Assembly: GCA_030052745.1 (NCBI GenBank)
Contig: JANBVO010000021.1
Location: 62,001 to 126,000 of the forward strand
Reading direction: 5' to 3'
DNA length: 64,000 bases
DNA from: Pleurostoma richardsiae
Taxonomy: Eukaryota > Ascomycota > Sordariomycetes > Calosphaeriales > Pleurostomataceae
Shown piece by piece: positions 54,792-63,536 of the stretch. A model generated the notes under the pieces. The model did no database searches. It was not told the origin of the DNA and saw only the letters and a list, made by a program, of their open reading frames with translations. The first letter of the stretch is position 1. Every line of letters starts with the position of its first letter. The position numbers were made by a program, and so were the translations under genes.

Positions 54792-56013
54792 ATGACTTCC
54801 ATATCAGAGCTGCCGCTGGGTTTCCTGCGGAACAACCCCTTGTCAAACAGTGTTGCAGATGCCATCGGCAACTTCCAAGAGCGTCGCGCGAAGCTGGGCC
54901 TGTCGAATCCCGGCACGACTGAGAATCTGGCGAAGGAGGTGCAGCGCGATGTCCTGCTGAACAACTACATGTTCTCGGGCCTGCGGGCCGACCTCACCAA
55001 GGCCTTCAGCTTGTCCCCCTTATTCCAGGTCTCTCACCAGTTTGCATTGGGTGAGCGCCTGAACCCGTACACGTTTGCTGCCCTGTACGGCACGAGCAAG
55101 GTTCGTTGTTTCCCCCTGTTCCGAGATCACCTCCGGCTTAGCCAGCTGCCACGCTCATCGACGTCTTTCTTTTGACTGCAATCTAACTATGGTGCCCATT
55201 AGGTTTTCCTGCAAGGGAACGTTGATAATGAGGGCCAGCTTTCCACGCGCTTCAACTACCGGTGGACTCCCGCCCAGGTCTCGAGGACGCAGTTTTCAAT
55301 TACGGGCACCGGCCAGGATATGGCGCAGTTCGAGCACGAGTTCACTGGCAACGACTTCACCGCCTCTCTCAAGGCCCTCAACCCTTCCTACCTCGAGGGT
55401 GGCCTGACGGGTATCTTCATCGGCAGCTACATGCAGTCAGTGACCCCCAAGCTCGCTGTTGGTCTGGAGGGTATCTGGCAGCGGGCCGGATTGACCCAGG
55501 GTCCTGATACGGCTGTTTCGTACTGCGCGAAGTACAAGAGCGCCGACTGGGCTGCCACCGCTCAGCTGTCCGCCCAGGGTGCCATCAACACGACCTTCTG
55601 GAGGCGGCTGTCCGAGAGGGTACAGGCCGGCATAGACATGACGCTTTCTCTTGCCCCCAGTGCTGGAGGGCTGATGGGTGGTGGCCTGCAGAAGGAGGGT
55701 GTCACGACGTTTGGAGCCAAGTATGACTTCAGGATGTCGACTTTCAGAGCGCAACTGGACTCCAAGGGCAAGCTCAGCTGCCTGCTGGAGAAGCGCGTGG
55801 CCGCCCCGGTCACCATGACCTTTGCCGCTGATGTGGACCATGCCACGGTACAGTCTCCTCCTTTTTGAGGCACGTCGGATGTTGTACTGACCAGTATCCG
55901 TACAGCAACAAGCCAAGATTGGCGTTGGTATCTCGATTGAGGCCGGCGGAGAGGAGCTCCAGGAGCAACAGGAGGCCCTCGGTGCTCAGGGATCCCCCAA
56001 CATCCCCTTTTAA
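54792..56013 (+). CDS. TOM40: TOM40 mitochondrial import channel
   Basis: Beta-barrel pore of the outer mitochondrial membrane TOM complex (353 aa), the entry gate for nuclear-encoded mitochondrial proteins. Exons 54792-55100, 55203-55847, 55906-56013; all introns phase 0. N-terminal helix region with [20 protein letters not shown] and [20 protein letters not shown], then alternating beta strands: [80 protein letters not shown] and so on to [20 protein letters not shown] and [20 protein letters not shown]. The last strand is [14 protein letters not shown], the C-terminal beta signal read by the SAM complex, followed by a short tail ending NIPF. Confidence 0.97.
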
Positions 56014-58404: not shown

Positions 58405-59618
58405 ATGGCAGCCAAGCTTCTACTGACCGCCCTCCTCCTCGGCACCAGCGTGCTGGGTCGCGCTCTCCCGGACTCCACCACCGATGTTGTCCAAGAGGAT
58501 CGTGCTGCCGTTGTAGTGGGTTCTAGTCGTGACCACCGGTTTCTCCTTGTCAGGGGCTAATATTAGTGCGTGTAGAGCGGCGAGGTCATCGAGTTGCCAA
58601 GGCGGGAGATTGTGGACATACTCCCTCGCGATGACGCCGATGTGGAGGACGCGGACGACGATGACAAGTTCAAAAAGCGTACGCTCGGTCCCCACCAACG
58701 CGACAGCCCATGACTGATGGTCCCTCGTAGCCTTCCCCTTCCATAAGAAGAAGAAGTTCCCCCACAAGCCTCACTTCCCGCGCGACGTCGCCGATGAGGA
58801 CTCGACCGATGCGACAGATGACGAGGACAAGTTCAAGAAACGTATGCTCAACCCATTGTGGCTGGAGGAATACTTGGCGCTGATTTCTCCTTTCCAAAGC
58901 CTTCCCTTTCCACAAGAAGAAGCCCCATCATAAGCCGCACTTTCCTCGCGATGAGGCCGACGAGGATGACACGGACAGTGACGACAAGAAGAAGCGTGGG
59001 TTTCATGTCCAACCCGGCACAATATCTAGTGACTGACATTGCGTACCCCAGCCTTCCCCTTCCACAAGAAGAAGCCGCATCACAAGCCCCATTTCCCTCG
59101 CGACGTAGCTGAGGACGAGTCCGCTGAGACTGCGGATGACGACGACAAGTTCAAGAAACGCAAGTTCAGCCCGTTAACTCCCATAAACTTGTGTGCGAGA
59201 GCTAACAGGGCCGTTAATCAACAGCCTTCCCCTTCCACAAGAAGAAGAAGTTCCATCCCAAGCCGCCGCACTTCCCGCGCGACGTCGCCGAGGAAGACTC
59301 CGCCGACACCGTTGAGGCAGCTGACGAGGGTGACAAGTTCAAGAAACGTAGGCCTCACGCTCTCAGAGAGTGCTAAAAAGCCAAGGAACTGATGAATGCC
59401 TCTTGATGCAGCTTTCCCGCACAAGAAGCACAAGTTCCACCCCAAGCCTCACTTCCCCCGCGATCACGCCGATGCCGACGCCGCAGACGATGAGGACAAG
59501 TTCAAGAAGCGTATGATACAACCTCCCTTTTGTGTCTTAGAAGCAGTCTCTCGCTAACATGACCGCGATAGCGTGGCATCACCACAAGGGCAAGAAGGGC
59601 AAGTGGCATCCGTTCTGA
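58405..59618 (+). CDS. Secreted His/Lys/Pro-rich protein of tandem duplicated exons
   Basis: Unrecognised family. Eight exons join to 265 residues: 58405-58515, 58576-58678, 58731-58841, 58900-58995, 59052-59159, 59225-59347, 59412-59510, 59572-59618. Exon 1 gives a signal peptide (MAAKLLLTALLLGTSVLGRA) and pro-like region. Exon 2 (SGEVIELPRREIVDILPRD, then acidic, ending DDDDKFKK) resembles the second half of a repeat. Exons 3-7 each encode one repeat of 37, 32, 36, 41 and 33 residues: a basic block such as PFPFHKKKPHHKPHFPRD followed by an acidic block such as VAEDESAETADDDDKFKK. Exon 8 is a basic end (PWHHHKGKKGKWHPF). Introns 2-7 are all phase 1, so repeat exons are interchangeable modules. 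Intron 5 begins with GC. Options: a Kex2-processed peptide precursor, a metal-binding or antimicrobial secreted protein, or a charge-patterned wall protein. No Cys at all. Splicing is inferred. Confidence 0.8.
58731..59510 (+). repeat. Five tandem exon-intron repeats
   Basis: Five copies of a unit of about 150-190 bp made of one coding exon (111, 96, 108, 123 and 99 bp) plus the following intron (about 56-65 bp). Exons are clearly similar in sequence (CTTCCCCTTCCACAAGAAGA-type openings, GACAAGTTCAAGAA-type endings). Introns have diverged more, though openings such as GTATGCTCAACCC and GTATGATACAACC still look alike. Duplication included the introns. Confidence 0.85.
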
Positions 59619-59734: not shown

Positions 59735-59756
59735 TTTTTTTTTTTTTTTTTTTTTT
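59735..59756 (+). repeat. 22-bp poly-T tract
   Basis: Uninterrupted run of 22 T about 117 bp after the stop codon of the repeat-exon gene. Could be a simple microsatellite; no SINE or retroposed sequence is recognisable next to it, and no target-site duplication was seen. Confidence 0.9.
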
Positions 59757-60355: not shown

Positions 60356-60373
60356 CCTAACCCTAATCCTAAC
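60356..60373 (-). repeat. Short interstitial telomere-like repeat
   Basis: Three units, CCTAAC CCTAAT CCTAAC on the plus strand; the minus strand reads GTTAGGATTAGGGTTAGG, close to fungal TTAGGG telomere repeats. Flanking DNA is ordinary and housekeeping genes lie on both sides, so it is not a chromosome end. Confidence 0.7.
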
Positions 60374-60972: not shown

Positions 60973-63536
60973 TCACATCACGACGCACTCCCGCTCCGGC
61001 GGCTCGCCGGTCTTCACCTTCGCCTTCTCCTTCTCGCCGCCTCCGCCGCCTCGGCTCTTCGACTTCCCCCGCTCCTTCTTGTGGGAGTGGTGGTGGTGAT
61101 GGTGGTGCTCCTTTCCGTTCGGGATTTCCAGCTCGGCCGCGGCCGGCACGCCGTCCTCGTCGTCCGCCTCGTCGTCCCCGTCAGCCTCGCGCAGCGGCTC
61201 CTTGCTCGTGCGCATGAGCCCGCCCAGCCGCGACATGGTGATGCTGATGCGGTTCTCGCCCGCCTGGCTGGCTGGCCGGCTGCGGCTGCCGCCGCTGGCT
61301 GTCTTGGCGAACCGTCTGGAGATCCTCTGCGCCGTTGACGGCTCCTCGCCGGGTGTCACGGCGGGCGAGTGCCCGGTTTCGGGCGTGATGGCGGGAGTGG
61401 CGGCGGTCGACTCCGAGAAGGTGAGGCTGCCGCGGCGGGAGGAGGAGCTACCCCCAATGAGGGTGGATGACGAGTACGGGTCATCGTCGGCGGTGAAGCT
61501 CAGGCGCGGCGGACGCTCGAGCTCTGAAGAGAAGCGGATGCTGGGGCCCGTCGAAGAATTCGTCCAGCCTGACGAGTCGAAGTAGCCACTAGCCTGCCTC
61601 GACAGGGCGCCGTCCAGGGTCGGGGTCTGCGTGCCGGTCGCCCCACCCACGTTGCTGGTAGAGTCGTTGTACGACGGGGGCTCATTTTCTGAGCCGTTGG
61701 TCGAGGCTGCTGTGATATCAACCATCGGAACAATCTGGTAGAAAAGCAGGTAGGGCATCTCCTCCCTGAGGGCCTGCTTGATGTCATCCACATAGGAGAC
61801 CCGATTATCGAGGTTAAGATCGTCAAACTTGACCCACTGGGCTTCCTCATAATCCGGTGGCGGGTCGCTGTCGTGCCGGCGGTTATCGGTGAGCAGCTTC
61901 GGCGCGACTCTTGCGAACGAGATGTAATGGCCGCTGTGGAGAGAGTCTCCTCGGTGGCAGACTACGGACTGGAGCACTAATTTATACTCAGCACTCAAGC
62001 CGTTGACTTCGTCGACCTTCACGTCGTCCACCATCATGAAGTGAGGCAACCTCAAACTATCGGGAATATCTATGAATGTGTTCTGTCGCCTGGGCATCCC
62101 CGACTCAGTCATCATGTAGCGCTTTAGGCAGATGCCCACAACAGGTCGCTGGTTGAAATGTTTCGCGACCTCAACGTCTGTCTGGGGCTCACTGTTCGAG
62201 GCGGCGTGCCAGGCTATATCGGGTGGATGTTAGTGACTGTGAAATCCTGAGATGTGGCAGACAACTCACGTATCAATCTGAAGAACTGCCAAGCAGGAAT
62301 TGTGACAGCCTTTACAACCGTGGACCCTGTCCGCTTCGCTCTTTGCAGTAGAGTGCCCGCGTCCGTTTCGGTCGCTCGACCTTCCTCATCGAGAATGACG
62401 CGCTGAATTATACTCGTTGACCTATGACGCGCTTGCGGGCGTATATCTGACGCAGAAGTCGAGGCGGGCGACTCGAGCGTCGTCCACCTCCGGCGCAAGG
62501 CATGAATATCCTCGATGTGGTCGGTCGACTCGGGATCTGCGTTATCATCATCCGCATTCTGTATGAGATGTATCGTCGTGCCTCTTGGTGTCAGGGGAGA
62601 TCGTTCCCCTGCCATCTTCTCCTCCAGACTGTCCCGCAGGACATCTACCTTCGTGTTGAAGTATTCTTCGAGGCAGTCCTCGAGCTTTATGCCCTTCCCG
62701 TCGGGATCGGCAGGTACGGCCAGGTTGAGGAGCCTCTCATACACAACCTTGTGATCATCGTCGTCTCGTTTTCCTTGGTGGAACAGGTCCACTTGCAAGG
62801 TGAGCAGAGGGAGCTGCAGGGTTTCGGTTATGAAGGCGAACGCTTCTGAAGTGTCCTGTTGTTCAAGCAATTGAGCGTCCCGCCAGCCGCACGCAGCTAG
62901 TGCGTCCTGAATATGCTTCGTCTAAGCTACCGTTAGTAAGGATTGAACTCCTTGTCTCGGCCCGGGAGGGGGGGTTGTTGCGGGTGGTCTGCTGGCGCCT
63001 ACCATATCCGTGTGGATCAGCTTTCCCGTCCTCAGCATATTGACCCAGAGGCGAAGGAGGGCGGCGAGTTTGCGCTGCGGCTCGTCTGAAAGTTCGTTCT
63101 TGAGCATGCATTCAAATGCTTCGAGTTTGGCGAACATGGCGAATAGCAGGGCGTCCAGGTAGCACGTAACGTTCCCCAAGTTCTCGGCGCCCAGCATGGT
63201 CACGTTGGGATTGTAGGGCAGGACGATTCCAGCGAACGATTTTTGCTGGAGGAGCAGGACCTCGATGGCTTTGTCGACGTCTCCGGCAGCGTACTTGCTG
63301 CTGAGCGCAAATCGGAAGAAATCGGTGGGGATATCGGTAACGTTCATGTCGGTGAGCCGTTTCGTTATGTCCTCAATCTGTGCGTTTGGAAAGGCCCGGT
63401 TAGACAGGGCGAGTGTCCAAGGATGCAACCCAAGAGGGCAGGGGAGCTGAGCAAGACTGGGGAGTACCTTTGCGTTTTCCTTTTCCTTCTCATCGTCCTC
63501 CTTGGAGAATTGCCTTGACGCATCGTTCTTGAACAT
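60973..63536 (-). CDS. Ubiquitin-specific protease with C-terminal CaaX box
   Basis: Cysteine deubiquitinase of the USP/UCH family (778 aa from the ATG at 63536). Exons 63536-63468, 63377-63003, 62921-62270, 62213-60973; phases fit. The catalytic Cys box is ENLGNVTCYLDALLFAMFAK; a Gln/Asp motif follows in LLEQQDTSEAFAFITETLQL; the His box is VVCHRGDSLHSGHYISFARV and the end of the domain is QALREEMPYLLFYQIVP. The C-terminal 250 residues are disordered (Ser-rich, SRRGSLTFSES), then a seven-His run, a basic block (HKKERGKSKSRGG) and the final residues ECVVM. CVVM fits a CaaX farnesylation signal, so the enzyme is probably membrane-anchored. An upstream ATG at 63665 (MAQVTAEASPQR) may add a short first exon joining near TRPLSAEAFFS, but the donor site there is unclear. 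Substrates unknown. Confidence 0.9.

Follow-up and report, generated by a model that had tools for sequence, protein, structure and literature searches.

Phase-1 repeat exons and Pro-Arg-Asp borders in a gene for a putative secreted charge-block protein of Pleurostoma richardsiae

What does a fungus make from a gene in which repeats of basic and acidic blocks are laid out one to an exon: a whole secreted protein, or a set of peptides cut from it and, if so, cut at which residues? The question is raised by a locus in Pleurostoma richardsiae that lies within the window, by which we mean the whole stretch of 64,000 nucleotides of contig JANBVO010000021.1 that was analyzed. Judged from the sequence, we give an even chance to the reading that the locus encodes an exon-built, kexin-cut precursor of zwitterionic peptides whose charge could be switched by pH, and the evidence for this and for the other readings is weighed below.

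Gene model and history of the repeat exons

An eight-exon gene model on the forward strand fits positions 58405-59618 exactly and gives a spliced product of 265 amino acids (Table 1). Both the start codon and the end of the stop codon coincide with the bounds proposed in the first-pass annotation, and the five repeat exons it had described, the basic block it had given as an example (PFPFHKKKPHHKPHFPRD) and the K-K-K variant in the fourth exon were all recovered. The hydrophobic N-terminus was read by eye as a putative signal peptide (residues 1-18) and the protein ends in KWHPF. All six of introns 2-7 are in phase 1, as had been claimed for the introns between repeats, which leaves the repeat exons symmetric, and intron 1 is in phase 0. 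The repeat exons (exons 3-7) measure 111, 96, 108, 123 and 99 nt; each of these lengths is a multiple of three and therefore each exon could be skipped, lost or duplicated without a change of frame.

Table 1. Coordinates of the features of the gene model within the window; a slash within a motif marks a candidate cut.
Feature	Positions	Strand	Remarks
Exon 1	58405-58515	+	Putative signal peptide (residues 1-18, MAAKLLLTALLLGTSVLG, judged by eye) and start of pro-region
Intron 1, phase 0, 60 nt	58516-58575	+	
Exon 2	58576-58678	+	Remaining pro-region, LPRR/E, octapeptide EIVDILPR, acidic half of unit 1
PRR/E candidate kexin site (LPRR/EIVD)	58597-58608	+	End of pro-region (residues 19-47); Kex2 preferences as in the parts used of PMC8528282
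PR/D site 1 (ILPR/DDAD)	58624-58632	+	Directly 5' of unit 1
Intron 2, phase 1, 52 nt	58679-58730	+	
Exon 3, repeat 1	58731-58841	+	Basic block, PR/D at 58778-58786, acidic block
Intron 3, phase 1, 58 nt	58842-58899	+	
Exon 4, repeat 2	58900-58995	+	PR/D at 58944-58952; KKK closes acidic block
Intron 4, phase 1, 56 nt	58996-59051	+	
Exon 5, repeat 3	59052-59159	+	PR/D at 59096-59104
Intron 5, phase 1, 65 nt	59160-59224	+	GC-AG, donor GCAAGT
Exon 6, repeat 4	59225-59347	+	PR/D at 59275-59283
Intron 6, phase 1, 64 nt	59348-59411	+	
Exon 7, repeat 5	59412-59510	+	PR/D at 59456-59464
Intron 7, phase 1, 61 nt	59511-59571	+	
Exon 8	59572-59618	+	C-terminal His/Lys/Trp block, which forms the basic half of unit 6; stop codon

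A CTRAY branch point was found in all seven introns (52-65 nt), starting at -17 to -23 from the intron end, and the window background for CTRAY at that distance, with both strands counted, is 191 out of 8801 AG sites. Retention of introns 1, 2, 4, 6 or 7 (five of the seven) would bring a stop inside the intron itself and retention of intron 3 a stop in the following exon, while intron 5, if retained, is out of frame and runs without a stop up to the end of exon 6. The GC donor of intron 5 occupies positions 59160-59165; a GT lies four bases past it, and splicing from it to the unchanged acceptor would disrupt the reading frame.

All ten pairs of repeat exons align with each other (z 9.1-18.6) and the alignment is lost in the fifteen pairs formed among introns 2-7 (z -1.8 to 2.4). 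Across the ten exon pairs, dS runs from 0.75 to saturated and dN from 0.09 to 0.28. The pooled pN/pS amounts to 0.24 for the coding frame, against 3.18 and 2.45 for the remaining forward frames and 1.51, 0.27 and 1.96 for the three antisense ones, where the value of 0.27 is read as the mirror of the sense wobble positions. These comparisons indicate that the repeat exons are old duplicates and that their protein sequence is under purifying selection. The gene appears to be single-copy in its own genome, as the paralogue search there gave five matches at E≤10, all of them within the same gene.

Unit register and the placement of arginine

Where do the units of the protein begin and end? The first-pass annotation had taken each exon as a unit, basic block first and acidic block second. 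The charge blocks it described are present, but as a unit the exon leaves half units in exons 2 and 8. The PR/D register turns the acidic tail of exon 2 and the basic head of exon 8 into halves of units 1 and 6, respectively. Cuts in this register give a pro-region of 29 residues (19-47), the octapeptide EIVDILPR and six acidic-to-basic units, compared with five full repeats at the exon level. The six units are 34, 36, 32, 38, 39 and 31 residues long, carry net charges of 0, -1, -1, 0, -1 and 0 (K, R, D and E counted) and contain three to five His each. Nine D/E residues are found in five of the six acidic blocks, those five being 15-22 residues long, and seven in the last.

This even distribution of charge was matched in 7 out of 20000 draws when residues were placed at random, a null that ignores the shared ancestry of the repeats, whereas 17% of random re-pairings of the acidic and basic blocks gave an equally even charge, and the exon register, too, is balanced. 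Charge balance thus lends weak support to selection on charge and does not decide between the registers, and it was rejected as proof of the PR/D register. Since K+R and D+E cancel within each unit, it is His that sets the net charge; with assumed pKa values, the charge calculated for the untrimmed units lies between -0.5 and +0.7 at pH 7 and between +3.6 and +5.4 at pH 5.

The placement of Arg is more restricted. Residues 56-265 contain 44 Lys and 5 Arg, and in the repeats Arg occurs exclusively in PHFPR/D at the border between the basic and the acidic block (five of five repeats), with a sixth PR/D (ILPR/D) immediately ahead of the first acidic block. An acidic residue follows all five Arg in residues 56-265 and none of the 44 Lys. 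Ten Arg are found after the signal peptide, seven of which (LPRR/E and the six PR/D) are followed by an acid at P1' as well as at P4'; the remaining three are pro-region residues (Arg 19, 33 and 46) that lack this combination. Among the nineteen Lys-Lys sites, an acid at P1' or P4' was found in none. PHFPRD is also the longest ungapped residue-invariant run across the five repeats, and five of its six codons vary synonymously among them. Lys-Lys is present at every repeat end and all six block-end sites read KK/P, which bears out the earlier statement that Pro follows each exon-end Lys-Lys. Kexin does not normally accept Pro at P1'.

How do these sites compare with those that Kex2 is known to use? 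In the parts of the published work used here, P1 is Arg almost without exception, the five top-ranked alternative P2 residues include Pro and the P4 preference is aliphatic (PMC8528282), and PR is recognised by Kex2 in K1 although it is a less efficient site than KR or RR (PMC13404059). At cleaved sites, P1' and P2' are enriched in small residues and D/E, P4' is moderately enriched in D/E, and basic residues are depleted; processing of Pir4 was lost in a mutant where KR/D was changed to KR/A, and good-looking Kex2 sites are sometimes left uncut (PMC2515848, in part). Some Agaricomycete repeat precursors expressed in Pichia gave products apparently cut after a single Arg and many products of one Coprinopsis precursor in Pichia end in Lys (PMC9769878, in part), while KK is counted among the lesser Kex2 sites (PMC6339444, in part).

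Read against the sequence, these preferences agree with seven of the ten Arg sites that follow the signal peptide and with none of the nineteen Lys-Lys sites. The exon-end Lys-Lys are disfavoured and look poor as kexin sites, although Lys-ended products are on record. At P4, LPRR/E and ILPR/D are aliphatic and follow the kexin rule, while HFPR/D has His and does not. Owing to shared ancestry the six PR/D sites are not independent of one another, LPRR/E being separate, and the P1' acid at PR/D comes automatically wherever an acidic block begins. The first-pass annotation considered Kex2 at Lys-Lys alone, came to no decision on it and missed the better-fitting Arg sites, namely LPRR/E, ILPR/D and the five PR/D of the repeats. 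A kexin with an S8 and a P domain is encoded in the same genome (locus L013).

Proposed processing and rival roles

In the reading to which we give an even chance, the gene would encode a secreted preproprotein that has grown through the duplication of symmetric phase-1 exons. Removal of the signal peptide would be followed by a kexin cut at LPRR/E that frees the pro-region, and then by cuts at ILPR/D and next at each HFPR/D to give six zwitterionic peptides, 31-39 residues long, in which an acidic N-half is joined to a C-half rich in Pro, His, Lys and Phe; Kex1-type trimming may take off the terminal Arg. The Lys-rich basic blocks would mostly survive because Lys is poor at P1 and Pro follows the block-end Lys-Lys, a step that is weakened by the Lys-ended Coprinopsis products (PMC9769878, in part). 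Complementary blocks would then associate with one another and the hyphal wall, and pH or a divalent metal would tune this association. The most likely role is that of a surface-active, repeat-derived peptide comparable to Rep1, and not that of a pheromone or a cyclised RiPP, and this is the least certain part of the proposal. More tentatively, and at a probability well short of even, the gene may represent a new class of precursor where kexin reads a single-Arg Pro-Arg/Asp in place of dibasic sites, every other basic residue of the repeats is Lys or His, the Lys/His cargo survives, the exons serve as neutral modules and the products self-associate in a pH-switchable manner.

If the PR/D reading is true, surveys that rely on KR, RR and KK would assign wrong cuts to it and may misread similar proteins, and dibasic-only screens would not find such precursors through their true sites. 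A logic in which Arg marks the cut and Lys is cargo could then be searched for across secretomes, and the units would represent a natural design for pH-responsive charge-block peptides. Growth exon by exon with a close charge balance would be an unusual case of modular exon duplication in fungi.

Two other peptide classes were considered and rejected. For an alpha-type mating pheromone precursor, STE13 dipeptides of the XA/XP type would be looked for after the cuts; the dipeptides after PR/ are DD, DV, DE, DV, DV and DH and the one after RR/ is EI, none of which is of this type. A UstYa-type (dikaritin) RiPP was rejected with no UstYa (DUF3328) match on the contig of the window (C51), at least sixteen matches at E≤0.001 being present in the genome as a whole, and there is no Tyr among the 265 residues for the ring closure of a UstYa-cyclised RiPP.

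The alternatives named in the first-pass annotation, namely metal binding, histatin-like antimicrobial action and coacervation, may each apply to released peptides or to the whole chain. Among the rival roles, it is possible but doubtful that the protein stays mostly intact after removal of the pro-region, as a disordered block polyampholyte of 218 residues that self-associates or bridges wall polymers and in which the number of repeats sets the valency. Charge blockiness, measured in 5-residue windows over residues 48-265, reaches 0.180 compared with 0.075 ± 0.014 and a maximum of 0.122 in 300 shuffles, while SCD, a longer-range measure of charge patterning, lies within its shuffles and so counts against this role. 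About 48% of residues 56-265 are charged, Cys is absent and the stretch falls on the disordered side of the charge-hydropathy boundary; the chain looks disordered. The D/E count, almost constant despite the drifting length of the acidic blocks, and the Pro after the Lys-Lys ends would also suit an uncut protein. What an intact polyampholyte leaves unexplained is the limitation of Arg to PR/D in all five repeats, in a context that kexin favours, against 44 Lys elsewhere, although the invariance of PR/D could instead serve the uncut protein, for example as a turn at the block border.

A histidine-rich secreted binder of Zn, Cu, Ni or Fe, acting whole or as peptides in scavenging or tolerance, is unlikely. 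There are 23 His among the 247 post-signal residues, three to five per unit and beside Asp-rich blocks, and His-rich secreted proteins have been described in Serendipita (PMC3192844, in part). Against metal binding, the protein has no Cys, the spacing of His differs from unit to unit (7,3; 5,1,3; 5,1,3; 6,5; 3,3,4; 17,1,1,8), two repeat positions swap His for Phe or Lys, and neither a Pfam family nor a solved structure was matched.

It is even less probable that the gene product gives rise to proline-rich cationic antimicrobial peptides (PFPFHKKKPHHKPHFPR-like), which the acidic pro-pieces would mask in the precursor. Pro, Lys, His and Phe are abundant in the basic blocks, and exon duplication in Nasonia has given antimicrobial-peptide-like repeats with one unit per exon and phase-1 introns (PMC2853521, in part). 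A lone basic block would, however, require a cut at KK/P, as the net charge is otherwise about zero at neutral pH, and the Nasonia repeat proteins are reported, in the part of the source used, to be without processing signals (PMC2853521). Finally, that the locus is a chance or decaying repeat and not a functional gene is scarcely credible, the empty homologue searches, which are limited in length, being outweighed by the branch-point signals in seven of seven introns and the coding-frame pN/pS of 0.24.

Relatives, comparable systems and neighbouring genes

Does the protein belong to a family that is already known? The full-length protein search, which covers proteins of about 146-464 residues, had 2182 candidates with none at E≤1, and the repeat-dimer profile search, which covers roughly 40-140 residues, had 2677 candidates with none at E≤10; both would overlook longer relatives as well as multi-exon genes that the source had never spliced. 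No solved structure was matched at E≤1, and the sole Pfam match listed (E 4.5; 7.9 bits versus a cut-off of 27) is below the curated threshold. A control search with the neighbouring ubiquitin hydrolase (USP) gave 429 matches at E≤1e-10 among 7999 scored candidates, and at least four of the matches listed carry fungal names, and hence the protein database includes fungi. The searches of proteins (length-limited), Pfam and solved structures thus agree with the earlier remark that no family of this kind has been described, and the gene is apparently of an undescribed kind. The first-pass annotation had called the layout rare in fungi; in the part of the literature on repeats and exon structure that was consulted, no fungus with its repeats laid out one to an exon was found, and no paper was found on introns between the repeats of a Kex2 precursor. 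Words starting with intron or exon are absent from the main texts, as used here, of two surveys of KEX2-processed repeat proteins, or KEPs (PMC7329392 and PMC6339444).

By analogy, the protein would work like a KEP, with which it shares three or more repeats and, as candidate features, a signal peptide and basic sites between the repeats (PMC9769878, in part). Published KEP screens use KR, RR and KK, and the block-end KK would pass them, though it is KK/P here. Unlike in KEPs, the likely sites are the single-Arg PR/D, the Lys-Lys between repeats is followed by Pro, the units are charge-balanced and 31-39 amino acids long, and one repeat is found per exon. Rep1 of Ustilago maydis is likewise a Kex2-cut repeat precursor whose peptides act on the hyphal surface, but its peptides form water-repelling, amyloid-like fibrils whereas the units here are highly charged and zwitterionic, a comparison made by description (PMC8528282, in part).

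The SP7-like effectors of Glomeromycotina, also compared by description, resemble the protein in having a signal peptide and imperfect hydrophilic repeats, most of which end in a conserved island; they differ in having one conserved intron before the first repeat instead of one per repeat and, in several members, a nuclear localisation region (PMC11333574, in part). The DELD proteins of Serendipita (Piriformospora) indica are small, secreted and His-rich, but they have 101-135 residues, an RSIDELD end and a His/Ala pattern, while the protein here has 265 residues and neither feature (PMC3192844, in part); membership of the DELD family was rejected as RSIDELD is absent from the C-terminus, which is KWHPF. 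In the nasonins of Nasonia each repeat unit has an exon to itself and the introns are in phase 1, and as they are defensin-like wasp proteins described, in the part of the source used, as lacking processing signals, the analogy is limited to gene architecture (PMC2853521).

A closer likeness in the placement of a site is given by the His-Box of Sun4-, Scw10- and Tos1-like proteins, a His-rich basic stretch before a Kex2 site, which is described once per protein whereas box and site recur five times here and take up much of the protein; attachment of the His-Box to the wall is speculation only (PMC2515848, in part). A SUN protein of the same genome (L014, C1:46727-47500 with its upstream flank) has a His-rich box, HAAHQHRHRHVRKHEHGSPVEKR, before EKR/S, located soon after a signal-like N-terminus and upstream of the kexin-like site. 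This finding covers one of the two SUN loci in the genome.

The nearest domain-matched genes in the window are a VDAC-type porin at 55203 (+) and the USP at 60973 (-), and no peptide-modifying enzyme was found among the 31 ORFs scanned out of 56 listed at 170 aa or longer. Among the matches listed for the USP, the best named relatives are from Coniochaeta ligniaria (64%) and Humicola hyalothermophila (60%), both Sordariomycetidae, followed by Nemania and Xylaria (54-55%). Close to its end the USP (60973-62229, -) has a run of seven His, and its last residues are CVVM, which we take to resemble a CaaX prenylation box. A 22-base T run is located at 59735-59756, about 117 bases past the stop codon of the repeat gene, and a telomere-like run (CCTAACCCTAATCCTAAC) at 60356-60373, between this gene and the downstream USP. 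Elsewhere in the genome, seven UstYa (DUF3328) matches lie within about 23 kb (C48:369971-393293), and although some of them are probably exons of one gene, the group is a candidate RiPP-type cluster.
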